From: Gammaproteobacteria bacterium
GTDB lineage: Bacteria > Pseudomonadota > Gammaproteobacteria > Burkholderiales > Sulfuricellaceae
Direction of reading: 5' to 3'
NCBI GenBank assembly: GCA_018824405.1
Contig: JAHJGO010000016.1
Coordinates: 248,001-312,000 of the forward strand
Length of the DNA: 64,000 nt
The notes under the pieces were generated by a model. It was not told the origin of the DNA. It searched no databases and saw only the letters and a program-made list of their open reading frames with translations. Shown here piece by piece: positions 34,655-56,999 of the stretch (its first letter is position 1; every line of letters starts with the position of its first letter). The position numbers were made by a program, and so were the translations under genes.

Positions 34655-35634
34655 GATTGCTCCGCCAGCTGGCTCGCTACATCGCCTTCCTGATTAAGAT
34701 CGATCACGTGCGCCTGCAGTGCAGCGCCGGCACCGGCAATAAAGCGCCTGAGCCAGATATCCGCCCCGGCCTTGTCCGTTGCCGGCAACAGGAGCAACAG
34801 CCGGTCTTCGGTGTAACGTCCGATCTTGTCTGAATTACGCAGGTTTTCTGCCATATGAAACACCAGTCTCTCCGTTTCTGTGTCATCGGCCGTGGCGAGC
34901 TTGATCATGATCAGGCTGAAGGCCGTTCCATAGCGCTTGGCGCGGCGCATCTCGTCCTCCAGCAGGAACATGAAAACATGCTTGCGATAGATCGGGTGCC
35001 CGTCTCCTTCCAGCAGCAGTTCTTCTTCCTGGTCGTAGAGGCGGCCATTGCTCAGCGCAGCCATGCCGAGCGAGTTCAGCCGGAAGCTGTGGATGTCCTT
35101 GTGCAGCAACTGGTCGCCGGGCGTGCGTGTCTGGCAGTTCATGCACAGGCCTTCCACTTCCGGAACCTGGAAAGAGGCGTGGCAGCTGTGGCAAGTGAAA
35201 TTCTCGCCCGGGATGTCGTGGTCGGTGCCAAGATCCGTCAAGTGGCCATGGCATTTCGGGCAGATTCGTCCCTTGCCGTTATGGACAAAGGTTTCGGCTG
35301 GCGCCACGTAGCCGCAGCGGAAATGGTGCAAGAGCGAAACCGGCGAGATATGCGAAGACTTGCAGGACGAGCAGGCTTCACGCACATTGACGTGATGGCT
35401 GCCGCAGGAAGGACATACGCTCAGGCGGTCGAAAAACAGTTTGTCCAGATAGTCTGCCGAGGCAAGATATTCCAGACCCTGCAGCATCTGCCCGGCAACG
35501 TCCGGTTCGGATTGTGGGAAAAGGGTGTAGCCATCGATATGTTCGGCCTGCCACTGAGGCAGCAAGTGGCCGCCGCGCTGCTGAACCTGCTGCAACACCG
35601 TCATGGGTTCGCCATACTTGTTTTCGGTATCCAT
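34642..35634 (-). CDS. Zinc-ribbon (TackOD1-like) protein with degenerate GGDEF-like domain
   Basis: 330 aa from the ATG at 35634 (GGAGGA 7 nt upstream). A cysteine array C74xxC77, C88xxC91, C107, C125xxC128, C148xxC151 and C164xxC167 matches the TackOD1 zinc-binding output domain as I remember it. From about residue 215 the fold resembles GGDEF (DEMRRAKRYGTAFSLIMIKL, LRNSDKIGRYTEDRLLLLLP); YTEDR (274-278) replaces GGDEF, so it cannot make c-di-GMP but might bind it, as PelD does. It sits between adaptor and synthase genes, so control of polysaccharide synthesis is plausible. Confidence 0.65.
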   Translation of the reverse strand: MDTENKYGEPMTVLQQVQQRGGHLLPQWQAEHIDGYTLFPQSEPDVAGQMLQGLEYLASADYLDKLFFDRLSVCPSCGSHHVNVREACSSCKSSHISPVSLLHHFRCGYVAPAETFVHNGKGRICPKCHGHLTDLGTDHDIPGENFTCHSCHASFQVPEVEGLCMNCQTRTPGDQLLHKDIHSFRLNSLGMAALSNGRLYDQEEELLLEGDGHPIYRKHVFMFLLEDEMRRAKRYGTAFSLIMIKLATADDTETERLVFHMAENLRNSDKIGRYTEDRLLLLLPATDKAGADIWLRRFIAGAGAALQAHVIDLNQEGDVASQLAEQSWNT

Positions 35635-35665
35635 TTTCATTCCTCCCCTTTGCATCCGGATCAGG

Positions 35666-41497: not shown

Positions 41498-41897
41498 GGA
41501 TGCTTTCGACGGCTAAGGAATGAAAGGGACTTCCCCGTCCCGAGGGTGCGGCGAAGTAGCCGCAAACGGCACGGAAAGTGCCAAGATGGAAAGAGTCATT
41601 TTCATCGAAATCGCCAGGATGGGGATGTCATAAGCATTATCCCCATAGGGATTGATCTCGCCAAGTATATTGTTGCAGTTCACTGTACGCCACCCCCATT
41701 CCCCTAGTACCTGCCTACAGTCATTCACCCACTGCCAAGTGAAGCTTCAGCGGTAGCGAAATGCAGTCTTTGCCTCGGTGTCAATTTGTCGCACTTCATG
41801 AACAATCTGTCACATGGATTACAGCGACGCAGATGGAAATCCCATCCGCCTAATCCGGGGCAGGCAATTTTGCTTCATGTTGAGAGAGGGAGGCGTT
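41498..41897. other. Region upstream of the giant exported protein
   Basis: About 400 nt. A 71-codon minus-strand frame (41513-41728) exists but has no recognisable protein features and only a poor RBS, so it is not annotated. The promoter of the 41898-56999 gene series should lie near 41700-41880. Confidence 0.4.
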
Positions 41898-44800
41898 ATG
41901 AGAACCGATGCCATGAAAAATGTTAAGGGGGTGCTGCAGAATTTGCGGCGGCTGGTTTTTGCATCGTTGCTGCTGTGCGTGTTGAGCCCGCAGTATGCGG
42001 CGGCGCTGAGCATCAATGTCACCGGTTCGGATGGTGCTGCCGTTACGGGCTACCGCTGGCTGGTGGAGGAAGATGCCACCAGGGATTCGAAGCCGGGCGT
42101 GCCGGCTGACGGCAGCAATCTGGCCTTGAGCTTCCATGCCAGCTACATGCCGGTGGTTGCCGCGGGCAACAGCACCGATCCGGCCAAGTCACCCGCGGCG
42201 CTTGCGCTCGACCCGCTGAAGCGCTACTACGTCTCGGTTCTGCCTGACGGCGGGTACCAGATGGGCGGCGCCGCAATTGCGGCGGGACAGTCGGCGGTAA
42301 ACATCGTGGTGAACAAGACACCGATCCCGACTGCGCAGATTTCCATCTTCGTATTCAATGACAACCAGCCCATCAACGGCGCACCGGATCTTCCTCAGGA
42401 AACCGGGCTATCCGGCTTCTCCATTACCCTGAAAGAAGCGGGAGGCACCTATGGCGCTTCCGGTGGCCAGGTGATCCAGGATGCGTTTGGTAATCCCATC
42501 GGCACCGAGTATCAGAAGAATCCGGACGGTTCCCCCGTGATGATTGGCGATGCGCCGGTCATTACCACCAAGGGCACAGGGTTCATCAAATCCGGTGCAG
42601 ATGGCACAGCGCTGATCAAGTATCTGGTGCCGGCCAAATATACGCTTGAGGTGATCCCGCCGGCTGGTTCGGGCTATATCCAGACGTCCACCATCGAGGG
42701 CACCAAGGGTATCGATGCCTGGGTGAAAGCCAACGAACCCAGCTTTTTCCAGGAATTCGGCCCGCCCGGACATCATCTGTTCATCGGCTTCGTCAAAACA
42801 GCCCTCAAGGACGCCACGGTGCTGAACGGCGCCAGCACGATCAGCGGCAAGGTGGTCAACATGCACAGCGCCAGACCGCCGGATTTTGCCTTTTATAACG
42901 GCGATCCCTTCCCGCAGTGCTGGATTGGCCTGAACGAGCTGGCCGTTGCTGGCGGTCGCGCAGTCTTCACCAAGGCCTGCAATGCAGACAGCACCTTCTC
43001 CATTCCCAATGTCAGGTCTGGAACCTACCAGCTGGTCATCTGGGACGAGAATCTGGATGTCGTTATCGCCTCTACCAATGTCACAGTGCCGCCGGGTGGC
43101 GGGGCTGTCGATCTGCAGGAAGTGCCGGTTTTCAACTGGTTCCAGCGGCTTGAAAGCAGGGTGTTTTTCGACGCCAACAATAACGGATTCCGCGATGCCG
43201 GCGAAGCCGGAATTCCGGGTCAGGCCGTCAATCTGCGTTTCCGTGACGGCAGCGTCTACCAGTCCCAGGCCACCGATGCGAATGGCGAGGTCCAGTTCAA
43301 TGAAGTATTCCCCTTCTTCAACTGGCTGGCAGCCGAGGTCGATTTCGCCCGCTTCAAGGCCACCGGTGCGACCATCGTGGTGGATGCGGGTGGACCCATT
43401 CCGCCTGATGGCGGCTGGGCAATGCCATCCTGGAACAAGCTCAACCCGCAGCCGCAGTCCGAGAATGGCGGCCTGCCATACCGTACCGAAACCGGCCCGG
43501 TCCTGGTCCAGGCTTTCCAGGGATTTCTCGGCCAGACCAACGTGATCGAGTGGGGCAAGAACAACTATGCGGCTGGCGAGAACGGCGGTATTTCCGGCAT
43601 TGTTTTCTACGCCACCACCCGTGCCGAGGAAGATCCGCGTTTTGCCGCGGTGGAAAACTGGGAGCCGGGCATTCCGCGCGTGCAGGTGAACCTGTATCGC
43701 GACTGCAACGCCGACGGCATTGCCGACAAGCCTGACTGCACTGCAACCAGCGGCCTGAATACGGTTGCCAGCGTGGTTCTGGCCGATACGGACAACTGGC
43801 CATTCGGGAATTTCCCCGCTGCCGAGGACAACGACCGCAACGCTAACGGCGTATTCGACCAGGGCGATGCTTACGATATCGCCACCACCGATAGCTGGGA
43901 CGACAATCAGCCTTCCGGTTGCCAGGGCACGCCTTTCGTTTCTAATGGCCACACCACGGACTGCTATGACGGCCTGCGCAATTTCAACCAGGTTCGTCCG
44001 GGTGTGTTTGACGGCGGCTATGCCTTCGGCGGCGGTGCCGGCAAGCCGGAACTGCTTCCCGGCAAATATATCGTCGAATCGGTGACGCCTCCCGGCTACC
44101 TGACGGCGAAGGAAGAGGACAAGAACGTCGATTTCGGCGACACCTATCAGCCGGGTACGCTGGCGCTTCCTCCTCTGTGCGTAGGTGACCTGCACACCGT
44201 TCCGAACGAGCTGACGCTGTTCCCCGGCGTGGCTTCCGCTTTTGCCGGCCAGCAGCGTCCTCTGTGCGATCGCAAGAGCGTCGATGTGGTTCAGGGCAAG
44301 AATACGGCTGCGGACTTCTTCATGTTCACCGAAGTGCCTGTGGCCAGCCATATCGTCGGCATGATTCTCAACGATGTGGCCAACGAGTTCGATCCCAATG
44401 CCCCGACTTTCGGCGAGAAGCAGGCGCCATCCTGGGTGCCGGTATCGATCCGCGACTGGAGCGGACGTGAGATTTCCCGCGTCTATTCGGATCAGTGGGG
44501 GACTTTCAATGCGCTGGTACCTTCCTCTTACTCGATGAATATTCCCATGCCATCGGGCGTGTCTCCCAACATGCTCACCACCTGCATGAACGATCCCGGC
44601 CCGATCAATGACGGCAGCGGCAATCTGGTGATCGATCCTTACTTCGACCGTCAGTACAGCCAGTTCTGCTATACCTTCCAGTATCTGCCGGGCAAGACCA
44701 CCTACCTGGATACGCCAGTGCTGCCGGTGGCTGCTTTCGCCGGTCCTGGACAATTCCCGGTGGATTGCGAGTTCAGCGACGGCACCCCGGTGGTGTACAC

Positions 44801-46946
44801 GGTGAACGGCAGGGCAACGTCGAATACCGGTGGCGGCTACGTGACCCAGAACGGTCCTTATGTGCCGCAACGCGTCGTCGACCAGACCCAGTTACCCACC
44901 CTGACCATCGTTTCTGCCGGAACCGTGAATGTGCCCAACCCGTCCTACGACGGCACGGCGAGTATGCCCAAGATGATTCCGCGTGACTTCGGTTTCGGCA
45001 GCGGCGGCACGGTCACCATCGGCGGCGCAGCGGTGACAGTCACTTCCTGGAGCAGCAGCCTGATCGAGGTGAACGTGCCATTCGGCACGCCAACCGGAGA
45101 ACTGGTGGTCAAGCGTGCCGATACCGGCAAAGCCTCGCTGCTTGGCGTGACCGTGACCGTGGGCGGCAAGCCGCCGACCCTGGTCCAGCCTGGCAGCAGT
45201 ATCCAGACGGCCATCAATGGCGCCTTGCCTGGCGACCTGATCATGATTGCCCCCGGCCGTTACGACGAGCTGGTGATCATGGACAAGAAGGTGAAACTGC
45301 AGGGCTGGGGCGCACTGGCGACCAATATCAATGCTGCCAAAGTGCCGGCCGAGAAGCTTGCCAAATGGCGCAGCGATATCTCCCTCAAATACGCCAATGG
45401 TGGTGCAACCCGCACCTTTGACCTGGTGGCCGGACAGACTGTCGGCTTCAACGGCCCCGACAACGAGCCTGCCCTGTTCAATACCGAGGAAGGCCCAGGC
45501 ATCATCGTGCTGGCCAGGATTGGTGAGTTCATCAGCACCAACAGCGCCCGCATCGACGGCCTATCCATCTCCGGCGGCGACAGCGGCGGTGGTATCTTCG
45601 TCAACGGCCATGCCAAGTACCTGGAGATCAGCAACAACAGGATCTTCAGCAACTACGGCACCTACGGCGGCGGCATCCGCGTCGGCCATCCCAACGTGGA
45701 TAACAACGGGGCGGACAACGACTTCCTCAAGATCCACAACAACCACATCACCCAGAACGGTGCTGCGGGGGGTGTCGGTGGCGGTGTGTCGATCTATGCC
45801 GGTACCCAGGTGTATGACGTTTCCAGCAACCATATCTGCGGCAACTTCAGTGCCGGACATGGCGGCGGCATCGGCCATCAGGGCAGCAGCAACCGCGGTG
45901 TGATTGCCGGCAACACGGTGATCTTCAACCAGTCCTTCAACCAGGGCCTGAACGTCTCCGGCGGCGGCATCTTTGTCGGCGGACAGGCGCCGATCGTGGC
46001 CGGCACGCTCTCTCCCGGTTCCGGCAACGTGACCGTATCCGGCAATCTGGTCCAGGGTAATCAGGCTGGTGCCGGCGACGGCGGCGGTATCGCGGCCCAG
46101 TTCGTCAACGGGACGGATATCGTTCCTGCTCCCAACAACGAATCGACCTGGTACAGGCTGGTGCTGGAAAACAATATGGTGGTGAATAACCTGGCAGGCA
46201 TGGCGGGTGGCGGTATCTCCCTCCAGGATGTGGCGCTGTCGACCATTGCCAATAACACGGTCGCCGGCAACCAGAGCACGGCCACGGCAGGCGCCGCCTT
46301 TGCGCCTGGCAGCCCGAACCTGTCCACGGCTCAGCCGGCGGGGATTGTTTCCCGTGCTCATAGCACGCTGCTTGCCAACACCATCGGCAACGGCCCACGG
46401 GTAAGCCCTTACAAGCGCTACGCCAACCCGACGCTGGTAAACAACATCGTGTGGCACAACCGCTCGTTCTTCTGGAGTATCGACAGCTCCACCATACCAG
46501 CCACCTTCGGGTTGCAGGCCAATGCGGCGAATCCGAACTGGGATCTGGCCGTGCTGGGAACCGCAGTGCCGTCCCTGCTGGATCCACGTTTCAGCGATCT
46601 GAGCAATGCCACGGGCTATCACCCGAGCAACCGGGCGGTTGATCCGATGTTCGTCAGCGAGGCAATGATAGGCGGGCGCGGGGAGACCATCCAGCAACCG
46701 GAGTTCACCACCGGAATCACGACCGCTCCGGCCTTCGACGAAGGCGGCAACTGGATCGACGTGCGCTTCGGCATCGGTGCACTGTCCGTTCCAGGATTGC
46801 TCAGCCCGGCCGGCAATTTCCACCTGCAGGCAGGCTCCCCGGTCATCAATCAGGGTACCCAGGTAGTGGGTGTGACGCCAGTCGCCGACATCGATGGGCA
46901 AGCCCGCTCGAACCCGCCCGATATCGGTGCGGACGAGCAGCAGTAA
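41898..46946 (+). CDS. Giant exported protein with SdrD-like, IPT/TIG and right-handed beta-helix regions
   Basis: 1682 aa from the ATG at 41898, 4 nt after GGGAGG; the frame runs 84 nt further upstream without an RBS. A signal peptide (LVFASLLLCVLSPQYAAA) leads to Cna/SdrD-B-like modules, with calcium-type FFDANNNGFRDAGEAGIPG near residue 420 and NANGVFDQGD near 650. An IPT/TIG-like domain (FGFGSGGTVTIGGAAVTV) follows, then a parallel beta-helix from PGSSIQTAINGALPGDLIMI to the closing PDIGADEQQ. It looks like a cell-surface or secreted scaffold. It heads the cupredoxin gene series and probably shares its transcript. I know no named homologue. Confidence 0.85.
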   Translation: MRTDAMKNVKGVLQNLRRLVFASLLLCVLSPQYAAALSINVTGSDGAAVTGYRWLVEEDATRDSKPGVPADGSNLALSFHASYMPVVAAGNSTDPAKSPAALALDPLKRYYVSVLPDGGYQMGGAAIAAGQSAVNIVVNKTPIPTAQISIFVFNDNQPINGAPDLPQETGLSGFSITLKEAGGTYGASGGQVIQDAFGNPIGTEYQKNPDGSPVMIGDAPVITTKGTGFIKSGADGTALIKYLVPAKYTLEVIPPAGSGYIQTSTIEGTKGIDAWVKANEPSFFQEFGPPGHHLFIGFVKTALKDATVLNGASTISGKVVNMHSARPPDFAFYNGDPFPQCWIGLNELAVAGGRAVFTKACNADSTFSIPNVRSGTYQLVIWDENLDVVIASTNVTVPPGGGAVDLQEVPVFNWFQRLESRVFFDANNNGFRDAGEAGIPGQAVNLRFRDGSVYQSQATDANGEVQFNEVFPFFNWLAAEVDFARFKATGATIVVDAGGPIPPDGGWAMPSWNKLNPQPQSENGGLPYRTETGPVLVQAFQGFLGQTNVIEWGKNNYAAGENGGISGIVFYATTRAEEDPRFAAVENWEPGIPRVQVNLYRDCNADGIADKPDCTATSGLNTVASVVLADTDNWPFGNFPAAEDNDRNANGVFDQGDAYDIATTDSWDDNQPSGCQGTPFVSNGHTTDCYDGLRNFNQVRPGVFDGGYAFGGGAGKPELLPGKYIVESVTPPGYLTAKEEDKNVDFGDTYQPGTLALPPLCVGDLHTVPNELTLFPGVASAFAGQQRPLCDRKSVDVVQGKNTAADFFMFTEVPVASHIVGMILNDVANEFDPNAPTFGEKQAPSWVPVSIRDWSGREISRVYSDQWGTFNALVPSSYSMNIPMPSGVSPNMLTTCMNDPGPINDGSGNLVIDPYFDRQYSQFCYTFQYLPGKTTYLDTPVLPVAAFAGPGQFPVDCEFSDGTPVVYTVNGRATSNTGGGYVTQNGPYVPQRVVDQTQLPTLTIVSAGTVNVPNPSYDGTASMPKMIPRDFGFGSGGTVTIGGAAVTVTSWSSSLIEVNVPFGTPTGELVVKRADTGKASLLGVTVTVGGKPPTLVQPGSSIQTAINGALPGDLIMIAPGRYDELVIMDKKVKLQGWGALATNINAAKVPAEKLAKWRSDISLKYANGGATRTFDLVAGQTVGFNGPDNEPALFNTEEGPGIIVLARIGEFISTNSARIDGLSISGGDSGGGIFVNGHAKYLEISNNRIFSNYGTYGGGIRVGHPNVDNNGADNDFLKIHNNHITQNGAAGGVGGGVSIYAGTQVYDVSSNHICGNFSAGHGGGIGHQGSSNRGVIAGNTVIFNQSFNQGLNVSGGGIFVGGQAPIVAGTLSPGSGNVTVSGNLVQGNQAGAGDGGGIAAQFVNGTDIVPAPNNESTWYRLVLENNMVVNNLAGMAGGGISLQDVALSTIANNTVAGNQSTATAGAAFAPGSPNLSTAQPAGIVSRAHSTLLANTIGNGPRVSPYKRYANPTLVNNIVWHNRSFFWSIDSSTIPATFGLQANAANPNWDLAVLGTAVPSLLDPRFSDLSNATGYHPSNRAVDPMFVSEAMIGGRGETIQQPEFTTGITTAPAFDEGGNWIDVRFGIGALSVPGLLSPAGNFHLQAGSPVINQGTQVVGVTPVADIDGQARSNPPDIGADEQQ

Positions 46947-47004: not shown

Positions 47005-48204
47005 ATGAGTGCAAAACATCTTTTCAAACTCACTGTTTCTCTGACAGTCGCGGCTTTTTGCGCTGCCACGGTTCCCGCAACGGCTGCAGTCTTCGTGCAG
47101 TGCCCGGGAGACACCAACGGGGATGCCATTCCGGATGGACCGGTCGATCCGAACGTGGTGTGCAAATCACTCACTGCCGGTGACGGATTCGTCACCATGG
47201 CGGACGGCAGGGTGCTATACAGCTTCGGTTTTCACGATGTCACCGGCGTCCCGCCGGACCAGGTATTCGCCCAGGGCGAACTGGCAGCCGAATTCGCGGC
47301 ACCCACGATCGAGCTCAAGGAAGGCAACCGGTTTTTTCTCAGCATGACCAATGTTGGCATGGTGATGCGTCCTGACCTGTTCGATCCGCATACCGTGCAC
47401 TTCCACGGCTTCCCGCAGGCGGCACCGGTATTCGACGGCATGCCTGAAGGGTCCTTCGGGGTGAACATGGGCTCGAGCATGACTTATTTCTATAACGTCA
47501 TGGAACCCGGCACCTTCATGTATCACTGCCACCAGGAAGCCACCGAGCACATGCAGATGGGCATGCTGGGCAACCTTTACGTGCGCCCGGCCCAGGACGG
47601 GCAAACCAAGGTGTACAACGGCAAGACCTATACCCGGTTTGCCTATAACGATGGGGACGGATCAACCGGCTACAACAAATCCTATCCCCTGCAGTTGAGC
47701 GGCTTTGACCATGTTTACCACGAGTTGCATATCGCTGTTCAGCCCTTGCCGTTCTCCACGATGCGCGACACCTATCACATGATCAACGGGCGCGGCTATC
47801 CCGATACGGTCAATCCCAACCCGCTCCCGGCTCCAGCCGAAAACGGCGGACTGGTATCGCAGAAGCTCAGCTCGCTGATCCAGATAAACCGGACGAGCGA
47901 AGGGGAAAAGCTGTTGCTGCGCCTGTCGAATCTAAGCGTCACCAACTATTACACCATTACCGTTCTCGGTTTGCCGATGCGGGTGGTCGGCGGTGGCGGC
48001 CACATCGCCCGTGGACCTGACGGCAAGAACCTCGCCTACAACACCAGTTCGGTCACGATCGGCGGCGGCGAATCGGCGGATGTTCTGGTCGATACCGCAG
48101 GCGTCCCGGCAGGAACCTATTTCCTGTACACCACCAATCTCAATTACCTGAGCAACAACGATCAGGATTTCGGCGGAATCATGACCGAAATTGTCGTCAA
48201 CTGA
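47005..48204 (+). CDS. Multicopper-oxidase-like protein 1 (type-1 copper plus half of a trinuclear site)
   Basis: 399 aa with AAAGGAGAAG before the ATG and a signal peptide (cleavage near ATAAV, residue 29). The first cupredoxin domain contains DPHTVHFHG (H129, H132, H134) and YHCHQEATEHMQMGM (H174, C175, H176, H182, M187). That is a full type-1 copper site plus two of the four HxH motifs a trinuclear centre needs. The second domain has no copper His (YYTITVLGLPMRVVG, TYFLYTTNLNYLS). On its own it cannot build a trinuclear cluster within one chain; the missing HxH pairs are in the next gene. Confidence 0.85.
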   Translation: MSAKHLFKLTVSLTVAAFCAATVPATAAVFVQCPGDTNGDAIPDGPVDPNVVCKSLTAGDGFVTMADGRVLYSFGFHDVTGVPPDQVFAQGELAAEFAAPTIELKEGNRFFLSMTNVGMVMRPDLFDPHTVHFHGFPQAAPVFDGMPEGSFGVNMGSSMTYFYNVMEPGTFMYHCHQEATEHMQMGMLGNLYVRPAQDGQTKVYNGKTYTRFAYNDGDGSTGYNKSYPLQLSGFDHVYHELHIAVQPLPFSTMRDTYHMINGRGYPDTVNPNPLPAPAENGGLVSQKLSSLIQINRTSEGEKLLLRLSNLSVTNYYTITVLGLPMRVVGGGGHIARGPDGKNLAYNTSSVTIGGGESADVLVDTAGVPAGTYFLYTTNLNYLSNNDQDFGGIMTEIVVN

Positions 48205-48241
48205 CGCGATCGCCACGAACCGAGAAACAGAGGAGGACGAC

Positions 48242-49531
48242 ATGAACCCGCTGATCCGCAAGCTACTGAAAACACTTGGAGTAGCCATGATGCTGCCGCT
48301 CATGGCCGCCGCCAATATGGCGTGGGCCGTGGTGGACGGTGTTGCCGCAAACACTTTTGAACTGACAGCCAGGGCGGACTATATCTCCAGCGCGGACGGC
48401 AACGTCCATTACGCCTGGGGCTATGCCAGCGGCACCGGAAGAATGCAGTACCCGGGCGTGACCATGATCGTCAACCAGGGCGATACCGTGACCGTCACCC
48501 TGAGCAACGATCTGCCGGTTCCCGCCCCGGTGTCCATCGTGTTTCCGGGGCAGAACAACGTTGTCGCCAGCGGCGGCACCCCCGGTCTCATGACCAACGA
48601 GGTGTTGCCCGGCGGCGGCAGCGTGACCTATACCTTTGTTGCCAGCAATCCCGGCACCTATCTCTATCACAGCGGCAGCAATCCATCGCTGCAGGTCGAG
48701 ATGGGGCTGCTGGGTGCGCTGATCGTGCGCCCCGGTGCCGATCCGCTGCATCAGGCATATGCTCATCCCAACACCAGCTTCGACCATGAATACCTGTTCC
48801 TGCTGACCGAGATGGATCCGCAGATTCATGCCCAGGTCGATGCCCAGGTAAGCGCGAATCCGCTCCTGGCACCGGTGGTGGATACCAGCACCTTCCGCCC
48901 GACCCTGTGGTTCCTCAATGGCCGCAATTCGCCGGACAGCATGCTCGATGCCAACGTGCCATGGCTGCCGACACAGCCCTACAATTGTCTGCCGCGCATG
49001 CATGCCGGCGAGAAGATCCTGCTACGCGTGGTCAATGCCGGGCGCGATCTGCATCCCCTGCATACCCACGGCAACAATACCTGGATCATCGCCCGCGATG
49101 GGCGTCTGCTGGAAAGCGCGCCGGGAATGGGGCCTGATCTGGCCGAGTCCACTTTCACCATTCGCGCCGTGCCGGGCGAAACCTATGATGCCACCTTCGA
49201 ATGGACCGGCAAGGGTCTGGGCTGGGATGCCTATGGGCATGCTCCGGGCGACCCACTGGCCCCGAACGAGTATGCCGCCGATCATGGCAAGCCCATCCCG
49301 GTGATCCTGCCCAATGTCCAGGATCTATCCTACGGCGCCCATTACAGCGGCAGTCCATACCTGGGGCAGTTCGGCGCGTTGCCTCCGGGGCAGACCCCGC
49401 AAGGTGAAAACGGCGGCTACTTCCATATGTGGCACTCCCACAACGAGAAGGAAATAACCAACGACGATATCTTCCCCGGCGGAATGATGACCATGCTGAT
49501 CATCGAACCGTCCGGTGTGACCATACCGTAA
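48242..49531 (+). CDS. Multicopper-oxidase-like protein 2 (other half of the trinuclear site, no type-1 Cys)
   Basis: 429 aa from the ATG at 48242 (GAGGAGG upstream) with a signal peptide. The first cupredoxin domain is degenerate: SIVFPGQ stands where HxHG is expected, and YLYHSGSNP lacks the second His. The second domain has HPLHTHG (H271, H274, H276) and, at the C-terminus, MWHSHNEKE (H398, H400), with Ser in place of the type-1 Cys. So it gives exactly two HxH motifs and no type-1 site, complementing the preceding protein. The gap between the genes is 37 nt. Confidence 0.85.
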   Translation: MNPLIRKLLKTLGVAMMLPLMAAANMAWAVVDGVAANTFELTARADYISSADGNVHYAWGYASGTGRMQYPGVTMIVNQGDTVTVTLSNDLPVPAPVSIVFPGQNNVVASGGTPGLMTNEVLPGGGSVTYTFVASNPGTYLYHSGSNPSLQVEMGLLGALIVRPGADPLHQAYAHPNTSFDHEYLFLLTEMDPQIHAQVDAQVSANPLLAPVVDTSTFRPTLWFLNGRNSPDSMLDANVPWLPTQPYNCLPRMHAGEKILLRVVNAGRDLHPLHTHGNNTWIIARDGRLLESAPGMGPDLAESTFTIRAVPGETYDATFEWTGKGLGWDAYGHAPGDPLAPNEYAADHGKPIPVILPNVQDLSYGAHYSGSPYLGQFGALPPGQTPQGENGGYFHMWHSHNEKEITNDDIFPGGMMTMLIIEPSGVTIP

Positions 49532-49547
49532 TCCAGGGAGAGCGATC

Positions 49548-51455
49548 ATGAAAATCAAAGTGCTACATATGAAAAAAATTGCGCAGGCACTGGCGCTGAC
49601 GGGGATGGTGACGATCGCCACCCCGATCATGGCGGCCAGCTACAACCTGCGTGCCGAAGCCTTTCCACTCACCATGCCGGACGGCGTGGTGGTGCAGATG
49701 TGGGGCTATGCGCTCGACGGCGCATCCTGCGCGGCACCGCCCTGCGCGGCGACGATTCCGGGCCCGGCATTGAGCGTGCCGCCGGGCGACACGACGCTGA
49801 CCATCAACCTCACCAACAATTTGCAGGAAGCGACCTCGATCGTCATTCCGGGCCAGGTGACCTCCATGAACCCGGTGTATGCCACCAACACTTCCGGCAA
49901 ACAGGTGGTGAAATCCTTTACCCACGAAGCAGCGGCGAGCGGCGGTAGCGCGACCTACACATGGAGCAGCCTGAAGCCGGGCACCTACCTGTATCAAAGC
50001 GGCACCCATCCCCAGGTGCAGGTACAGATGGGCCTCTACGGTGGTCTGACCCATGATGCGGCAGCCGGCCAGGCTTATGCCGGAGTCGCCTACGACAGCC
50101 AGATACTGCTGCTGTTCAGCGAGATCGACCCCTTGCTGCATGAGGCTGTAAGCACGCCCGGCGGTTACGGACCAGGCGCGCCCATGAGCAGCACGCTCGA
50201 TTACCAGCCCAAATATTTCCTGGTCAACGGCATGCCGTTTACCGTTTCCGATGCGCCCCTGCCCCTGCAGGCCGGGCAGCGCACCCTGTTGCGCTTCATC
50301 AATGCGGGCCTGATGACTCACGTTCCGGTCATCAACGGCATGGACATGCAGCTGGTGGCGGAGGACGGCAATCTCTATACCTGGCCGAAAAAACAGTATT
50401 CGGCCCTGCTGCCGGCGGCAAAAACGGTGGATGCGGTGCTTACGCCACAGCTTCCCGCCGGTGCGACATTGGTCAACTACCCGCTTTATGACCGCCGCTT
50501 GTACCTGACCACCGGCGCGGCAGCCGATGGCGGCATGTTTGCCCGGATGGTGGTCGCCAATGGCGTCAGTAGCCCCGTGATGACATCCACTCCCGTCGTC
50601 AACGCCGCCATCAACACGCTTTACAGCTACCAGCTGACGGCCAGCGACCCGGATGGCGGCCCGCTGACCTTCTCCCTGGCCAGCGCGCCAGCCGGAATGA
50701 CGCTTGACGGCGCCGGCCTGATTACGTGGACGCCCGTCAGCACCGGGATACAGCCAGTCACCGCGCGGGTGACCGACCCGACCGGCCTGCGTTACGACCA
50801 GGAGTTCAATATCTCCGTCACTGCCGCCAATCGCGCGCCGCTGACCGCCGACGATACCGCCACGGCACTGCTGCGGACAGCCGGCGTGACCTACCCGGCC
50901 GTCACGATCAATGTGCTGGCCAACGATATGGACCCGGATGCACCAGCCAATAACATCGATCCGGCCACGGTATTCCTGACCACGGTGCCGGATAGTGGTG
51001 GCTGGGCAATCGTCAACCCGGACGGCAGCATTTCCTACCGGCCAGCGGTGGGCTTCAACGGCGTCGAAACCTTGCGCTACAAGGTGAGGGATACGCTGGG
51101 CATGGCATCCAACCCCGGTGCCTACGTGCGCGTCACGGTCAATCCAGCCAATCAGGCTCCGGTCCTGGCGGACGATACCGTAGCTGCACCGGTGAGGACG
51201 GCGGCGCCATATCCTGCCGTGATCATCAACGTGCTGGCCAACGATTCCGACCCGGACGGCACGCTCGACCCGGCTTCGGTATGGATCACAGTCAGCCCCA
51301 ACAAGGGCGGCTGGGCGGTCGCCAACCCGGATGGCAGCATTTCCTACCGTCCCAAGGCTGGCTTCGTCGGCACCGAAACCCTGCGCTACAAGGTAATGGA
51401 TAACCTGGGCCTGGCGGCACCGGTCGCCGCCTACGTGCGGGTTAATGTGCAGTAA
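49548..51455 (+). CDS. Cupredoxin-like protein 3 without copper ligands, with Ig-like and cadherin-like repeats
   Basis: 635 aa, RBS GGGAGAG. Residues about 28-335 align with protein 2 (TSIVIPGQ, GTYLYQSGTHPQVQVQMGL, NAGLMTHVPVING) but have lost every HxH motif. A putative Ig-like domain (about 342-425) and two cadherin/VCBS-like repeats of about 105 residues (from 428 and 535) follow. The repeats nearly match those in the nearby subtilisin. I infer a structural or surface-anchoring subunit rather than an enzyme. Confidence 0.8.
   Translation: MKIKVLHMKKIAQALALTGMVTIATPIMAASYNLRAEAFPLTMPDGVVVQMWGYALDGASCAAPPCAATIPGPALSVPPGDTTLTINLTNNLQEATSIVIPGQVTSMNPVYATNTSGKQVVKSFTHEAAASGGSATYTWSSLKPGTYLYQSGTHPQVQVQMGLYGGLTHDAAAGQAYAGVAYDSQILLLFSEIDPLLHEAVSTPGGYGPGAPMSSTLDYQPKYFLVNGMPFTVSDAPLPLQAGQRTLLRFINAGLMTHVPVINGMDMQLVAEDGNLYTWPKKQYSALLPAAKTVDAVLTPQLPAGATLVNYPLYDRRLYLTTGAAADGGMFARMVVANGVSSPVMTSTPVVNAAINTLYSYQLTASDPDGGPLTFSLASAPAGMTLDGAGLITWTPVSTGIQPVTARVTDPTGLRYDQEFNISVTAANRAPLTADDTATALLRTAGVTYPAVTINVLANDMDPDAPANNIDPATVFLTTVPDSGGWAIVNPDGSISYRPAVGFNGVETLRYKVRDTLGMASNPGAYVRVTVNPANQAPVLADDTVAAPVRTAAPYPAVIINVLANDSDPDGTLDPASVWITVSPNKGGWAVANPDGSISYRPKAGFVGTETLRYKVMDNLGLAAPVAAYVRVNVQ
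50829..51452 (+). repeat. Two cadherin/VCBS-like coding repeats in MCO-like gene 3
   Basis: Copies begin at 50829 and 51150 and share DD-TA, PYPAV-INVLANDxDPD, GGWA-NPDGSISYRP and ETLRYKV. They resemble the three copies in 53676-54653 at DNA level too. Confidence 0.75.
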
Positions 51456-51546: not shown

Positions 51547-52071
51547 ATGGAAGCACTGAAAAAACGCATCACCCATGATGGCCGGCGCTCCGAGCTGGGT
51601 TTCTGGAGCCTGGTGACGGCACTTTGCATCATTTTTATTGCGCTGGTTTTTTCCGGCTGTTCCAGTACGGCCGCGCGACAGGACACCGTGTCCGGAGCAA
51701 GCGCCGAACCTGAAAAATTCGAGGACTGCCGGAATGTGGACAGTCTGGGCATCCGGATCGGCGGAATGAACCTTTCCGCAGCCGGCAGCATGCTCGATTT
51801 CCGCTACCGCGTTGTCGACCCGGCCAGGGCTGCTCCGCTGTTCGACCGGAAGATCCGGCCCTATCTGCTCGACGAGTCGAGCGGTGCGGCCTTCGGCGTC
51901 CCGGATACGCCCAAGCTGGGGCAACTGCGGACGACGCGGCGCAACAGCGATGCTGCGACTGGCAAGGATTATCACATCCTGTTCGCCAATCCGGGGCATC
52001 TGCTGAAAACAGGGCAGAAAGTTTCCCTGGTGATCGGCGATATCAGGGTAGAAAACCTGGTCGTTCGATAG
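51547..52071 (+). CDS. Lipoprotein associated with the multicopper oxidase series
   Basis: 174 aa from the ATG at 51547 (AGGAGAATGTG). A long basic N-terminus leads to a hydrophobic segment and lipobox FSGC (near residue 37). The mature part has LDFRYRVVDPARAAPLFDRK and YLLDESSGAAFGVPDTP, then YHILFANPGHLLKTGQKVSL. I believe this all-beta domain accompanies copper/cytochrome gene clusters, but I cannot name a function. It follows MCO-like gene 3 by 91 nt. Confidence 0.7.
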   Translation: MEALKKRITHDGRRSELGFWSLVTALCIIFIALVFSGCSSTAARQDTVSGASAEPEKFEDCRNVDSLGIRIGGMNLSAAGSMLDFRYRVVDPARAAPLFDRKIRPYLLDESSGAAFGVPDTPKLGQLRTTRRNSDAATGKDYHILFANPGHLLKTGQKVSLVIGDIRVENLVVR

Positions 52072-52304: not shown

Positions 52305-54656
52305 ATGAAAAACACGGAAAATTATTCTCTGCATTACTGGCTGGGTGCGTTGCTGCTGGCCTTGCTGTGCAGCACCGTTGCCGAAGCGGCGGTGATCCAG
52401 GCCGAACTCGAAAACGAACTGGCTGTCCGTGCGCCTCACGAGGAGATGGCGGTCATCATTTCCATGTCGGACAAGGTGAATCCACGCCTGTTCAAGGTCA
52501 GGAACAAGCGCCAGCATGATCCGGAGCACGTCAGGGCGCTGCGGCAACGCGCTGTCATCACTCAGGCTCCGGTGAAAAGATTCCTGGAAGGCAGGGGCGG
52601 GAAGCGCATCCGCGAACTGTGGGTCATCAATGGCATTGCCGTGAAGGTTCGCGCTGATGCCATACGTGACCTGGCTTCCCGCCCCGGCATTGAAAGCGTA
52701 CGCCTCGATACCCTGCTCCAGGCACCGGCTGTCAGCCAGGGCAGCACGGCGATTCCAGAATGGAATCTGCTTGCCGTGCAGGCCCCGGAGCTGTGGTCGC
52801 TGGGGTATGCTGGCAGCGGTGTCGTGGTGGCTGGCATGGATACCGGCGTCGATGTGAACCACCCCGATCTGGCCAGCAGCTGGCGCGGCGGAAGTAACAG
52901 CTGGTACGACCCGCACGGCGAGCACCTTACGCCCTTCGACCTGAACGGCCATGGCACTCAGACCATGGGCATCATGGTGGGCGGGGCGATGGGCGGCACG
53001 TCAATCGGCGTGGCGCCGGGCGCGCGCTGGACAGCAGTAAAGCTGTTCAATGATGCCGGGCAGGCTGCCTACAGCGATATCCACCTGGCCTTCCAGTGGC
53101 TACTGGACCCGGATGGCGACGCGGCGACGGCGGATGCGCCGGACGTGGTGAATGCCTCCTGGTACCTGTCGGGCACCACCGGACAGTGCTTCAGCGAATT
53201 CAACCCGGATATGGAAAACCTCAAGGCCGCCGGGATCGCGCTGGTTTTTGCCGCCGGCAACAGCGGCCCGGCGCCTCTGAGCAGCGTGAGCCCCGCCAAT
53301 AATCTGGCCGGTTTCTCTGCCGGGGCGGTGGATTCGTCCCTGAGCATAGCCAGTTTCAGCAGTCGTGGCGTGTCTCCCTGCGATGGCGGGATTTATCCGA
53401 AAATGGTTTCGCCCGGCGTCAATATCAACACTTCAGACCTTTCGTTTGGCGGATTGCCGCTCTATGCCATGGTTTCCGGGACATCCTATGCCGCGCCGCA
53501 TGCCGCCGGGGTCATGGCGCTGCTGACCGGCGCATTTCCTGCCGCGAGCGTCGCCGACATCGAGACCGCGCTCACGCAGAGCGCACTGGATCTCGGGATC
53601 GCCGGGCCGGACAACAGCTATGGATACGGCATCACCCATGCCAGGGCGGCTTACGATCGCTTGCAGGCGGCCACCAATCAGCCTCCGGTCGCTGCCGACG
53701 ACAGCGCCACCGCAGCGCAGCGCAGCAGCGCGCCTTACCCGGCAGTCATTATCAACGTGCTGACCAACGACACGGATCCGGATGCGCCCGCCAACACCAT
53801 CGACCCGGCCACGGTGTTCCTGACTACGGTGCCGGATCAGGGCGGCTGGGCGGTCGCCAACCCGGACGGCACGATTTCCTATCGCCCGAAAGCCGGATTC
53901 AGCGGAACCGAGACCTTCCGCTACAAGGTGCGCGATACGCTCGGGCTGGCCTCGGTTTCCGCCGCCTTCGTGCGGGTCAGCGTTGCTGCGCCGCCACCAT
54001 CTGCCAACCGTCCGCCGCTGCTGCTTGACGATGCGGCGACTGCGCCATTGCGGACGGCCGGCGTTGCCTACCCGGCGGTGATCGTCAACGTGCTGGCCAA
54101 CGATTCCGACCCGGATGCACCCGCCAATACCATCAACCCAGCCACGGTGTTCCTGACCACGACTCCGGACCAGGGCGGCTGGGCTGTCGCCAATCCGGAT
54201 GGCACGATTTCCTATCGCCCCAGGGCCGGATTCTCCGGGCTTGAAACCTTCCGTTACAAGGTGCGCGATACGCTCGGGCTGGCTTCCGTCTCGGCTGCTT
54301 TTGTGCGGGTCACCGTCACTGCGGGCCCCATTGCCGCCAACCAGCCGCCGCTACTGGCCGACGATGCGGCCAGTGCACCGCTGCGCACAGCAGGCATTCC
54401 CTACCCGGCGGTGATCGTCGACGTGCTGTCCAACGATGCTGACCCGGATGCGCCTGCCAACGCCATCGACCCGGCCACGGTGTTCCTGACCACGGTTCCG
54501 GACCATGGCGGCTGGGCTGTCGCCAACCCGGACGGCACGATTTCCTACCGCCCGAAAGCCGGCTTCAGCGGAACCGAGACCTTCCGCTACAAGGTGCGGG
54601 ATACGCTGGGACTGGCGCCGGACAGCGGTGCCTTTGTGCGGGTGCCGGTGCTATAG
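52305..54656 (+). CDS. Secreted subtilisin-like (S8) serine peptidase with three cadherin-like repeats
   Basis: 783 aa, GGGGGGAGC before the ATG. Signal peptide (ALLCSTVAEAA) and an inhibitor-like propeptide (to about 140) come first. The S8 domain has catalytic Asp (VAGMDTGVDVNHPDL), His (GHGTQTMGIMVGG), the oxyanion Asn region (FAAGNSGPAP) and Ser (VSGTSYAAPHAAGVMAL). Three repeats of about 110 residues start near 458, 568 and 679. It may process the surface proteins of the cluster. Confidence 0.93.
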   Translation: MKNTENYSLHYWLGALLLALLCSTVAEAAVIQAELENELAVRAPHEEMAVIISMSDKVNPRLFKVRNKRQHDPEHVRALRQRAVITQAPVKRFLEGRGGKRIRELWVINGIAVKVRADAIRDLASRPGIESVRLDTLLQAPAVSQGSTAIPEWNLLAVQAPELWSLGYAGSGVVVAGMDTGVDVNHPDLASSWRGGSNSWYDPHGEHLTPFDLNGHGTQTMGIMVGGAMGGTSIGVAPGARWTAVKLFNDAGQAAYSDIHLAFQWLLDPDGDAATADAPDVVNASWYLSGTTGQCFSEFNPDMENLKAAGIALVFAAGNSGPAPLSSVSPANNLAGFSAGAVDSSLSIASFSSRGVSPCDGGIYPKMVSPGVNINTSDLSFGGLPLYAMVSGTSYAAPHAAGVMALLTGAFPAASVADIETALTQSALDLGIAGPDNSYGYGITHARAAYDRLQAATNQPPVAADDSATAAQRSSAPYPAVIINVLTNDTDPDAPANTIDPATVFLTTVPDQGGWAVANPDGTISYRPKAGFSGTETFRYKVRDTLGLASVSAAFVRVSVAAPPPSANRPPLLLDDAATAPLRTAGVAYPAVIVNVLANDSDPDAPANTINPATVFLTTTPDQGGWAVANPDGTISYRPRAGFSGLETFRYKVRDTLGLASVSAAFVRVTVTAGPIAANQPPLLADDAASAPLRTAGIPYPAVIVDVLSNDADPDAPANAIDPATVFLTTVPDHGGWAVANPDGTISYRPKAGFSGTETFRYKVRDTLGLAPDSGAFVRVPVL
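53676..54653 (+). repeat. Three cadherin/VCBS-like coding repeats in the subtilisin gene
   Basis: Copies start at 53676, 54006 and 54339 and read NxPP..DDxAxAxxRxAxxPYPAV in outline, ending GTISYRPKAGFSGTETFRYK. They are near-identical in places to those of MCO-like gene 3, which suggests recent exchange or duplication. Confidence 0.8.
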
Positions 54657-54702: not shown

Positions 54703-55350
54703 ATGAATACGGGAAAAAAATCAGTCATCCATGCCCGGCAGCCATTCTGGGCACTTACCGTCACGCTGCTATCGCTCGGCCTCGGCCTGGTTTCAGGAGC
54801 GGCGCGGAGCGGCGAGCACGATCACCACGGCCATGGAATGGATGCCATGCGCGGCGTCTACACGCGTTCAGTCAATTCGTACAACATCCCCGACCTCAAG
54901 CTGGTGGACATGAACGGGACAGCGGTTTCCCTGCGTGAGGGGCTGGGCGGAAAAGATCCCGTCATGCTGAATTTCATTTTCACCACCTGCACCGCGATCT
55001 GCCCGGTGATGAGCGCAACCTTTCACCATGTGCAGGATCAGCTCGGCCCGGACAGCGGCAAGGTGCGCATGATCTCGATTTCCATTGATCCGGAACACGA
55101 TACCCCGGCCCGGCTGCGGGAATATGCCAGCAAGTATCAGGCAGGCCCGCAATGGAAAATGCTGACCGGGAGCGCAGAAAACAGCATTGCCGTGCAGCGG
55201 GCTTTCGATACTTTCCGTGGGGACAAGATGAATCACGCACCGGCCACCTTCCTTCGGGCGGGTGGCGCGGACAAGCCCTGGATCAGGCTGGACGGGTTTG
55301 TCAGCGCGCCGGATATCGTCCGTGAGTATCGCCGCCTGGCCCCCAGATGA
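54703..55350 (+). CDS. SCO1/SenC-family copper chaperone
   Basis: 215 aa from the ATG at 54703 (GGGGGAATCC). A basic N-terminus and transmembrane anchor/signal (ALTVTLLSLGLGLVSGAA) precede a His-rich patch (EHDHHGHGMD) and a thioredoxin-like domain. The copper CxxxC is TCTAICP and the distal His is in KMNHAPATFL. SCO proteins deliver copper to CuA or other copper enzymes; here the recipient could be the multicopper proteins upstream. ATGA overlap with the next gene. Confidence 0.92.
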   Translation: MNTGKKSVIHARQPFWALTVTLLSLGLGLVSGAARSGEHDHHGHGMDAMRGVYTRSVNSYNIPDLKLVDMNGTAVSLREGLGGKDPVMLNFIFTTCTAICPVMSATFHHVQDQLGPDSGKVRMISISIDPEHDTPARLREYASKYQAGPQWKMLTGSAENSIAVQRAFDTFRGDKMNHAPATFLRAGGADKPWIRLDGFVSAPDIVREYRRLAPR

Positions 55351-56999
55351 GGAGGCTGCTCGCCATGCTGCGCCTGATAGCGTTTCTGCTGGCCGCGCTG
55401 TTTGCCGGCATGACAGCGGCGGCTGATGCTGTCACCGCAGCGGATGGCAAGCGCATCTACCGCGAGGGGCTGTTGCCTTCCGGGTTGCCCTTGCGTGGCA
55501 TGGTCCAGAACGGGGTCGAGCTGAGCGGCGGCGATGCAGCTTGCGCCAAGTGCCACCGCCGCAGCGGACTGGGCGGCGGCGAAGGGCAGAATACGATTAT
55601 CCCGATTGCCGGGCGCCAGCTATTTTCCAGGCCCGAGGTTCGCGGTTCAGAGCGGGTGCGCGCCCTGCTGGATGTGGATGAAATTCGCGCGCCCTATACC
55701 GGGGCCAGCCTGGCGCGCGCGCTGCGCGAGGGGGTCGACCCGGCCGGGCGCAAGCTGGACCCCCTGATGCCGCGCTTTGCCCTGAGCGATGCCGAAATCG
55801 CGCCGCTTGCCGCCTATCTGAAAACGCTCTCCGTGGAACCGGCGCCGGGCGTGACGGATAGTGAAATCCATTTCGCCACCATCATTGCGCCGGGCGTCGC
55901 GCCACAGAGCACTCGGGCAATGCTCGACGTGCTGCACGCGTTTTTTCGCGACAAGAATGGCGGCACCCGGCTGGAAAGCCGCCGCAAGGCCGCCGGCACA
56001 GAGCAGATGTATCGCGTTTACCGCAAATGGGTGCTGCACGAGTGGACATTGTCCGGTTCGCCCGAAAGCTGGCAGGAACAGCTTGAAGCGCGTTACCGGC
56101 AGCAGCCCGTGTTTGCCGTGTTGAGCGGAATCGGCGCAGGCAGCTGGCGCCCGGTGCACGAATTCTGCGAGCAGGCAGAAATTCCCTGCGTGTTTCCCAA
56201 TGTGGATTACCCGGAAATCGCCCGGCCCGGATATTCGACGCTGTATTTCTCGCGCGGTGTCGCGCTGGAAGCCGAGGTGCTGGCAAAACACCTGGCGGAT
56301 AACCGGCAGGCCGGCCATTCAGGCCGGATCGTGCAGGTGTTCCGCGACCACGCTGCCGGGCGCATGCCGGCGCAGGCCTTGCGTTTGGCCCTGCAGCGTC
56401 ATGGGATCGAAGAGGTGTCAGACCATCCGGTGTCGGGCGAAACCCCTGTTTCGCCTGCATTCTGGTCGCGCCTGCTCGACGAGGCCCGGCCCGGCGTGTT
56501 GGTCCTGTGGCTCGATGATGACGATATCGGCAATCTGCATGGCCAGGGCGAGATGCCGTCCGGCATGGAAAATATCTATATCTCCGGCAGCCTGATTGTG
56601 CGGCCCTGCCGGGTGCTGCTATTCGGCGACTGGCTGGAGCGGATGCGGCTGGTGTATCCGTTCGAGCTGACGGAGCGGCGTCAGCAGCGCCTGTCGCGCG
56701 TGAAGCACTGGCTGGCAGCCAGAAAAATTGCGCCAGTGAACGAGCGCATCCAGTCCAGCACCTATTTCGCGGCCACGATTGCAGGCGATGCCCTGTCCCA
56801 CATGGGAGATACGTTTTCGCGCGATTACTTTATCGAACGCGTGGAGCACATGACGGAACAGTCCCTGTCCTCGGCCATTTATCCTCGCCTCAGTCTCGGG
56901 CCGGGGCAGCGTTTTGCTTCCAGGGGCAGTTATGTGGCGAGATTTCCGGGGGAAGGGGAGTACATGCTGGTGCCGGTGAGCGAGTGGATCGTGCCGTGA
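55347..56999 (+). CDS. Cytochrome c fused to a periplasmic-binding-protein-like domain
   Basis: 550 aa. A signal peptide (LIAFLLAALFAGMTAAA) is followed by a mono-haem domain with CAKCH (about residue 66-70) and a distal methionine candidate in PLMPRF. From about 170 the chain looks like a type-1 periplasmic-binding/ABC substrate-binding domain (IHFATIIAPGVAPQSTRAML, IPCVFPNVDYPEIA). The fusion would join electron transfer to ligand binding in the periplasm. Translational overlap with SCO1 suggests a joint role. Confidence 0.85.
   Translation: MRRLLAMLRLIAFLLAALFAGMTAAADAVTAADGKRIYREGLLPSGLPLRGMVQNGVELSGGDAACAKCHRRSGLGGGEGQNTIIPIAGRQLFSRPEVRGSERVRALLDVDEIRAPYTGASLARALREGVDPAGRKLDPLMPRFALSDAEIAPLAAYLKTLSVEPAPGVTDSEIHFATIIAPGVAPQSTRAMLDVLHAFFRDKNGGTRLESRRKAAGTEQMYRVYRKWVLHEWTLSGSPESWQEQLEARYRQQPVFAVLSGIGAGSWRPVHEFCEQAEIPCVFPNVDYPEIARPGYSTLYFSRGVALEAEVLAKHLADNRQAGHSGRIVQVFRDHAAGRMPAQALRLALQRHGIEEVSDHPVSGETPVSPAFWSRLLDEARPGVLVLWLDDDDIGNLHGQGEMPSGMENIYISGSLIVRPCRVLLFGDWLERMRLVYPFELTERRQQRLSRVKHWLAARKIAPVNERIQSSTYFAATIAGDALSHMGDTFSRDYFIERVEHMTEQSLSSAIYPRLSLGPGQRFASRGSYVARFPGEGEYMLVPVSEWIVP

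Follow-up and report, generated by a model that had tools for sequence, protein, structure and literature searches.

Can the copper centre of a multicopper oxidase (MCO) be divided between the products of two genes? This question is raised by a locus of a Sulfuricella relative (GenBank assembly GCA_018824405.1, 3.03 Mb), at which three consecutive genes encode two-domain cupredoxin proteins, here named P1, P2, and P3. The genes lie on a stretch of 64,000 nucleotides (contig JAHJGO010000016.1, positions 248,001–312,000), hereafter the window, whose first nucleotide is position 1 in the coordinates given for this locus. To our knowledge, the copper ligands of the MCOs described so far all belong either to a single chain or to several identical ones. 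A first-pass annotation of the window had proposed one trinuclear centre extending over two polypeptides, and this proposal is supported by our analysis of sequences and models: P1 and P2 are likely to share one trinuclear centre, because their complementary ligands never vary, the pairing of the two genes is constant, both proteins are homologous to type C two-domain oxidases, and models of the concatenated proteins are confident.

Complementary copper ligands in P1 and P2

All three proteins are matched by multicopper-oxidase models of Pfam, P3 most weakly, and they are paralogous over both domains (hhalign E-values of 8e-28 for P1-P2 and 1.6e-38 for P2-P3). As judged by eye, each gene is preceded by a ribosome-binding-like sequence and each protein has a Sec signal peptide-like N-terminus without a twin-arginine motif. 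The gene coordinates and residue numbers of the first-pass annotation were correct, and the copper ligands it had listed, H129/H132/H134, H174-C175-H176, H182, and M187 in P1 and H271/H274/H276 and H398-S-H400 in P2, were all found in place. Under ligand roles that we assume from position in the standard oxidase motifs, domain 1 of P1 holds a type-1 set (H129, C175, H182, M187) and four cluster histidines (H132, H134, H174, H176), while domain 2 of P2 holds four cluster histidines (H274, H276, H398, H400), preceded by H271. Together the two proteins have, by motif, the ligands for precisely one site of type 1 and a single trinuclear site.

Conservation of these residues was assessed in an alignment of 84 rows, comprising the window and 83 further loci, of which L009 and L012 lie on one contig (83 distinct rows). 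Each P1 and P2 ligand is invariant wherever a contig covers the residue (80/80 to 84/84), and all exceptions in P1 are gaps at loci where the gene is cut by the contig end (L027, L043, L044, L056). The complementarity of four plus four histidines in HxH motifs, first noticed in a single pair of sequences, is invariant over the aligned rows and is thus not due to chance. No ligand set was present in domain 2 of P1 or domain 1 of P2 in any of the 84 rows, nor in either domain of P3 in 82 rows. P3 also contains no HxH motif and carries Big_9/tandem-95 repeats according to Pfam, which agrees with its earlier description as a ligand-free homologue with repeats. Partial remnants of ligands are found in P2 (H143, His in 55 of 84 rows) and in P3 (position 150, His in 29 of 82; H258, in 50 of 82), and because of these remnants the sequences suggest that P1, P2, and P3 descend from a complete oxidase whose sites were lost in turn.

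Between the HCH motif and H182 of P1, two glutamates (positions 47536–47547) are nearly invariant: E178 is kept in 80 of 84 rows (one Thr, three gaps) and E181 in 82 (two gaps). By their position they could form a metal-substrate site beside the type-1 copper. Copper nitrite reductases have the type-2 copper pattern HxxDxH and HCA. Such an enzyme was considered for P1 and ruled out by the cluster pattern, with His132 in all 80 and His176 in all 81 rows in which the residue is present.

Homology to two-domain oxidases

A profile search of solved structures with P1 returned on top 3g5w, the blue copper oxidase of Nitrosomonas europaea, and 2zwn, a laccase from a metagenome, both of which we take to be type C two-domain oxidases. 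Structural comparison gave Z-scores of 31.7 and 31.6, respectively, for P1 (284 residues, 2.5 A) and 29.1 and 29.4 for P2 (272 residues). The first match of P2 in the sequence search was 2zwn, and the HxH pair in domain 2 of 2zwn aligns with that of P2. According to excerpts of PMC13151041, two-domain oxidases are trimers of identical chains in which the cluster is coordinated by residues from two protomers, and type C is defined by a type-1 site in the N-terminal domain. This bears on the claim that P2 had lost the type-1 cysteine. Domain 1 indeed has no cysteine, its place being taken by Ser in 81 of 84 rows, but domain 2 need not have lost one, because the type-1 site of type C oxidases lies in domain 1.

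Models of the concatenated proteins

AlphaFold models of P1-P2(-P3) were calculated on single chains from loci with the genes in one frame, read through the single stop codon between them. The best of five models had a mean predicted local distance difference test score (pLDDT) of 80.2 and a predicted template modelling score (pTM) of 0.84 for the P1-P2-P3 chain of locus L067 (34-row alignment), and 88.3 and 0.89 for the P1-P2 chain of locus L024 (57 rows). The longest stretches with pLDDT below 50 are the junctions (residues 391–424 and 844–876 in L067; 379–408 in L024).

The structure 6vow, by length and family presumably a three-domain oxidase, was aligned to the P1-P2 model by VIA-align over 380 of 409 residues (3.0 A, Z 26.7, model residues 26–792), ranking 23rd among the 50 matches listed. 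P1 ends at residue 376 of this model, and about 284 aligned residues are taken up by its two domains. Because P1 ends there and the alignment extends up to the final strand of P2 domain 2, the remainder of 6vow would correspond to P2 domain 2; most simply, laccase domains 1, 2, and 3 lie on P1 domain 1, P1 domain 2, and P2 domain 2. The cluster of laccases is located between domains 1 and 3, and with this domain assignment the laccase interface would fall between P1 domain 1 and P2 domain 2. The models thus predict the trinuclear cluster at an interface between subunits. In agreement with this, a Thermus laccase matched the three-protein model with a template modelling (TM) score of 0.70 by target over 767 columns. 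A first VIA run had given almost only matches to the P2 part, so the absence of laccases there is uninformative.

Ceruloplasmin was rejected as a whole-model match to the three-protein model; its domains align in order, but with a TM score of 0.21 and a root mean square deviation of 34 A. Given the domain ring order that we assume for ceruloplasmin, this mismatch may reflect an opposite order in the model, leading from P1 domain 1 to P2 domain 2. Taken alone it would equally fit no fixed order, and an opposite order is preferred because the pTM and the laccase matches favour it.

Distribution and gene order

Scanning genome contigs with a P2 profile yielded 362 relatives at the cut-off, the best 80 of which were examined together with loci L009–L011 (83 loci, 82 distinct). 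P1 is located upstream of P2 on the same strand in all 83 loci, and wherever P3 was found, in 81 loci, it directly follows P2; the remaining two (L053, L078) stop just past P2. Fused P1-P2 versions were searched for, as the first-pass annotation had suggested, and did not materialise: neither P1 and P2 nor P2 and P3 are fused in any of the 83 loci, with 282 weaker relatives of the 362 lying outside this set.

The P1-P2-P3 module is widespread yet patchy. By record title, carriers belong to about ten phyla and include Pseudomonadota, Deltaproteobacteria/Desulfobacterota groups, Nitrospira, Myxococcota, Bdellovibrionales, Acidobacteria, Planctomycetes, Verrucomicrobia, Hydrogenedentes, Bacteroidales, and Dehalococcoidia; as most are metagenome bins, isolated unexpected placements could be due to misbinning. 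Among 399 genomes of the order of the host, P1 was detected in six and P2 in seven at an E-value of 1e-25, six genomes being shared; the seventh (G006) has a P2 match of E 2.1e-28 in a 317-aa frame and no P1 match at this threshold. P1 was found in three of 22 genomes of the family, and P2 in two of 398 genomes of the phylum (E 1e-20). Pairwise distances of P1, P2, and P3 are correlated (r 0.68–0.78), which indicates shared inheritance but is confounded by species history. P3 is the least conserved of the three, with a median distance of 0.55 versus 0.42–0.44 for P1 and P2. Other oxidase genes are present in nine host genomes.

Neighbouring genes

Neighbour counts (Table 1) refer to 46 loci of at least 19 kb (45 distinct) and to the fetched flanks. 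P1, P2, P3, and a giant protein encoded upstream of P1 are present in all 46. The giant protein is probably a scaffold or adhesin of the P1-P2-P3 complex, because at 11 of the 83 loci it is in frame with P1 and at four with P3. In these fusions the giant protein has P1 toward its C-terminus or P3 at its N-terminus, which resembles a circular permutation of the module.

Downstream of P3, a gene for a small lipoprotein-like protein is followed by those for an S8 subtilase, an SCO1/SenC-family protein, and a protein that we call MofC-like following PMC5566968, of which excerpts were available. The tandem-95/Big_9 repeats of P3 and of the subtilase are about 53–69% identical, as determined in a sister-genome comparison, and this similarity suggests repeat exchange within the operon. 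Elsewhere in the window, a gene for a protein with Thaumarchaeal output domain 1 (TackOD1; 34642–35655, minus strand) is part of an apparent exopolysaccharide/secretion cluster with glycosyltransferase, HlyD-like, and OEP genes.

Table 1. Genes and ligand motifs of the P1-P2-P3 locus (window coordinates).
Feature	Position	Strand	Description
Giant protein	41814..46946	+	1710 aa; SdrD_B, fn3_3, choice-of-anchor Q
P1	47005..48204	+	399 aa; two-domain cupredoxin protein; Sec-like signal peptide (by eye)
P1 H129-T-V-H132-F-H134	47389..47406	+	type-1 His and two cluster His; His in 80/84 rows, 4 gaps
P1 H174-C175-H176	47524..47532	+	type-1 Cys between two cluster His; 81/84 rows, 3 gaps
P1 H182...M187	47548..47565	+	type-1 His and axial Met; 82/84 rows, 2 gaps
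P2	48242..49531	+	429 aa; two-domain cupredoxin protein
P2 H271-P-L-H274-T-H276	49052..49069	+	His at all three positions in 84/84 rows
P2 H398-S-H400	49433..49441	+	both His in 84/84 rows
P3	49548..51455	+	635 aa; P1/P2 paralogue without ligand set, then three tandem-95/Big_9 repeats
Small lipoprotein-like protein	51547..52071	+	lipobox-like LVFSGC; 41/46 long loci
S8 subtilase	52305..54656	+	P3-like tandem-95 repeats; 31/46 long loci
SCO1/SenC-family protein	54703..55350	+	possibly copper delivery; 20/46 long loci
MofC-like protein	55347..56999	+	c-type cytochrome domain (one CxxCH) and periplasmic-binding domain; 20/46 long loci

Proposed architecture and alternatives

Most likely, P1-P2-P3 is a heterotrimeric oxidase that is exposed at the surface and has a single active site; we infer its 1:1:1 stoichiometry and its location. 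P1, P2, and P3 would form a heterotrimer with type C two-domain architecture that has retained one of three possible active sites. Type-1 copper would be bound in domain 1 of P1 by H129, C175, H182, and M187, and the cluster would be held at the interface of P1 domain 1 and P2 domain 2 by H132, H134, H174, and H176 of P1 and H274, H276, H398, and H400 of P2. P3 would be the third wall that closes the ring and could tether the complex via its repeats or via fusion to the giant adhesin-like protein. The type-1 copper would presumably receive electrons from a reductant outside the cell, most likely a metal, Fe(II) for instance, and from this copper they would pass along H174-C175-H176 to the cluster for the putative reduction of O2. 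Where present, SCO1 and the MofC-like cytochrome would serve copper supply and/or electron exchange. That the module constitutes a third MCO architecture, namely an obligate heterotrimer built from unlike two-domain subunits with one asymmetric site, attached to a giant adhesin at the cell surface and exchanging electrons with minerals in about ten phyla, is a tentative proposal, to which we give a slightly less than even chance.

Several observations weigh against this architecture. The top solved match of P1 in the single-sequence search was 3gdc instead of a type C enzyme, and the profile search with P2 placed ascorbate oxidase first, by a narrow margin over 3g5w and 2zwn. The other models of the sets of five were poorer, with mean pLDDT down to 67.5 (L067) and 78.5 (L024), and Foldseek placed the Thermus laccase on the P1-P2 model at a TM score of only 0.48 by target. 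The domain assignment of 6vow derives from residue ranges, reading through stop codons favours contact in the models, and type C trimers were probably among the training data of AlphaFold. P3 is assigned to the complex on the basis of paralogy, gene order, and a single model. Of the 46 long loci, 26 lack SCO1 and 26 lack MofC within the flanks that were fetched.

These points have to be seen together with other explanations of the same genes. P1 and P2 could form separate homo-oligomers, with P1 acting as a blue-copper electron carrier and P2 as a copper binder without a type-1 site, and with no common cluster. Each does have its own signal peptide and ribosome-binding-like sequence (by eye), and two-domain oxidases trimerise from identical chains (excerpts of PMC13151041). 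The invariant cluster-type histidines of both proteins would then be partnerless, however. The two proteins also co-occur, and the models appear to fit P1 domain 1 against P2 domain 2; we therefore consider separate homo-oligomers improbable. A common P1/P2 centre could also occur in another stoichiometry, such as a P1-P2 dimer, a hexamer, or a mixed trimer, with P3 only as accessory or tether. The missing ligand set of P3, its lower conservation, and its frequent joining to repeats or to the giant protein would suit such a role, yet P3 retains two cupredoxin domains, keeps its place behind P2 at every locus where it was found, is a close paralogue of P2, and is part of the three-protein model with its high pTM. 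On balance this arrangement seems unlikely.

The complex as described might also work in another direction or on another substrate, for example as an electron relay that links a mineral with the MofC-like cytochrome, or as an oxidase of Cu(I), Mn(II), or phenols. In this family a full trinuclear cluster is the signature of O2 reduction, which argues against such a role. By record title, however, several carriers are Desulfobulbaceae or Geobacter relatives, lineages that are mostly anaerobic and fit poorly with O2 reduction as the sole role, and 20 of the 46 long loci encode the MofC-like cytochrome. In excerpts of PMC5566968, OmpB is needed for Fe(III) oxide reduction in Geobacter, whereas the higher abundance on magnetite of the Sideroxydans proteins treated below fits Fe(II) oxidation (excerpts of PMC12016527). 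We regard another direction or substrate as possible, though somewhat doubtful.

Significance of a possible divided copper centre

No report of a split multicopper centre was found in the open-access literature searched. The three-gene cluster itself has already been published for Sideroxydans; the predicted split centre, of which we found no mention, would be the new part. If true, a two-gene copper centre would add an architecture to a textbook family and represent a duplicated but unfused stage, i.e. a living intermediate between homotrimeric two-domain and fused six-domain enzymes. Single proteins of the cluster, which are annotated separately as MCOs, would be predicted to be inactive when expressed alone. 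With a widespread module and its link to growth on magnetite in Sideroxydans, the function is directly testable by co-expression.

Comparison with known systems

MofA and OmpB had been brought up as single-chain relatives of the P1-P2-P3 proteins. Like this module they are secreted and have MofC-like and SCO1 neighbours (excerpts of PMC5566968), but they are single long chains with all motifs, whereas in the window and the 83 loci the motifs are on two genes. Chains that we call MofA-like from neighbours and motifs, not by name, adjoin MofC and SCO1 homologues at loci L146 (at least 1605 aa), L147 (1988 aa), and L149 (at least 2339 aa). In these chains the type-1 motif is preceded by an N-terminal part devoid of ligands; it lies near residue 500, and in L147 HIH and HDH motifs occur near residues 945 and 1051. 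No Pfam family was found in the two chains scanned (L147, L149). The best hhalign match of P1, P2, or P3 to a MofA-like profile of three sequences from the order of the host had a probability of 23 (E 0.0009, 45 columns). Profile comparison and motif order thus give no support to MofA/OmpB as fused relatives, although the MofC and SCO1 neighbours are shared. The motif order may point to a type-B-like layout, which would be an independent route to a one-site oxidase. At a further locus (L141, 2809–6138, minus strand), a 1110-aa frame next to a MofC homologue is weakly matched by fn3, carries HFH and HCH motifs close to the C-terminus, and ends in a series of HQH repeats; this is apparently a different oxidase with a MofC partner.

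Ceruloplasmin and MnxG are pseudo-trimers of six cupredoxin domains with an interface cluster in a single chain, unlike the module, in which neither P1 and P2 nor P2 and P3 are joined at any of the 83 loci. MnxG requires MnxE and MnxF, but the MCO is encoded by mnxG alone (excerpts of PMC5622069).

The closest published gene arrangement is Slit_1812-1818 of Sideroxydans lithotrophicus ES-1 with three tandem MCO genes (excerpts of PMC5566968), which we equate with the P1-P2-P3 module by published description, not by sequence. At both loci, SCO1 and a MofC-like cytochrome accompany three cupredoxin genes in tandem, and the third Slit protein has no MCO motifs and contains adhesin- and polysaccharide-lyase-like domains, comparable to the P3-giant fusions (excerpts of PMC5566968 and PMC12016527). 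Two Slit proteins are credited with canonical oxidase motifs, the complementarity of which is unmentioned in these excerpts. In a 2025 proteomic study, the Slit_1812-1818 proteins reached higher abundance in late cultures on magnetite than in those on Fe(II)-citrate, and the authors consider a role in solid Fe(II) oxidation plausible, with the roles of the proteins not known (excerpts of PMC12016527).

Type C two-domain oxidases have two cupredoxin domains per chain, as do P1 and P2 by Pfam and structure, and are their best structural matches (Z 29–32). Their type-1 site in the N-terminal domain is found in P1 and not in P2 or P3, and their cluster, located between domain 1 of one chain and domain 2 of its neighbour, takes its ligands from two protomers, as predicted for P1 and P2. 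They differ in being trimers of identical chains with equal sites (excerpts of PMC13151041), whereas the halves of the P1/P2 site are on different genes, with at most one site per trimer. Each type C chain has the ligand sets of both domains; neither P1 nor P2 has both in any of the 84 rows. P1-P2-P3 would thus work as a type C two-domain oxidase that departs from the rule of identical chains, and the sequences argue for unlike chains.

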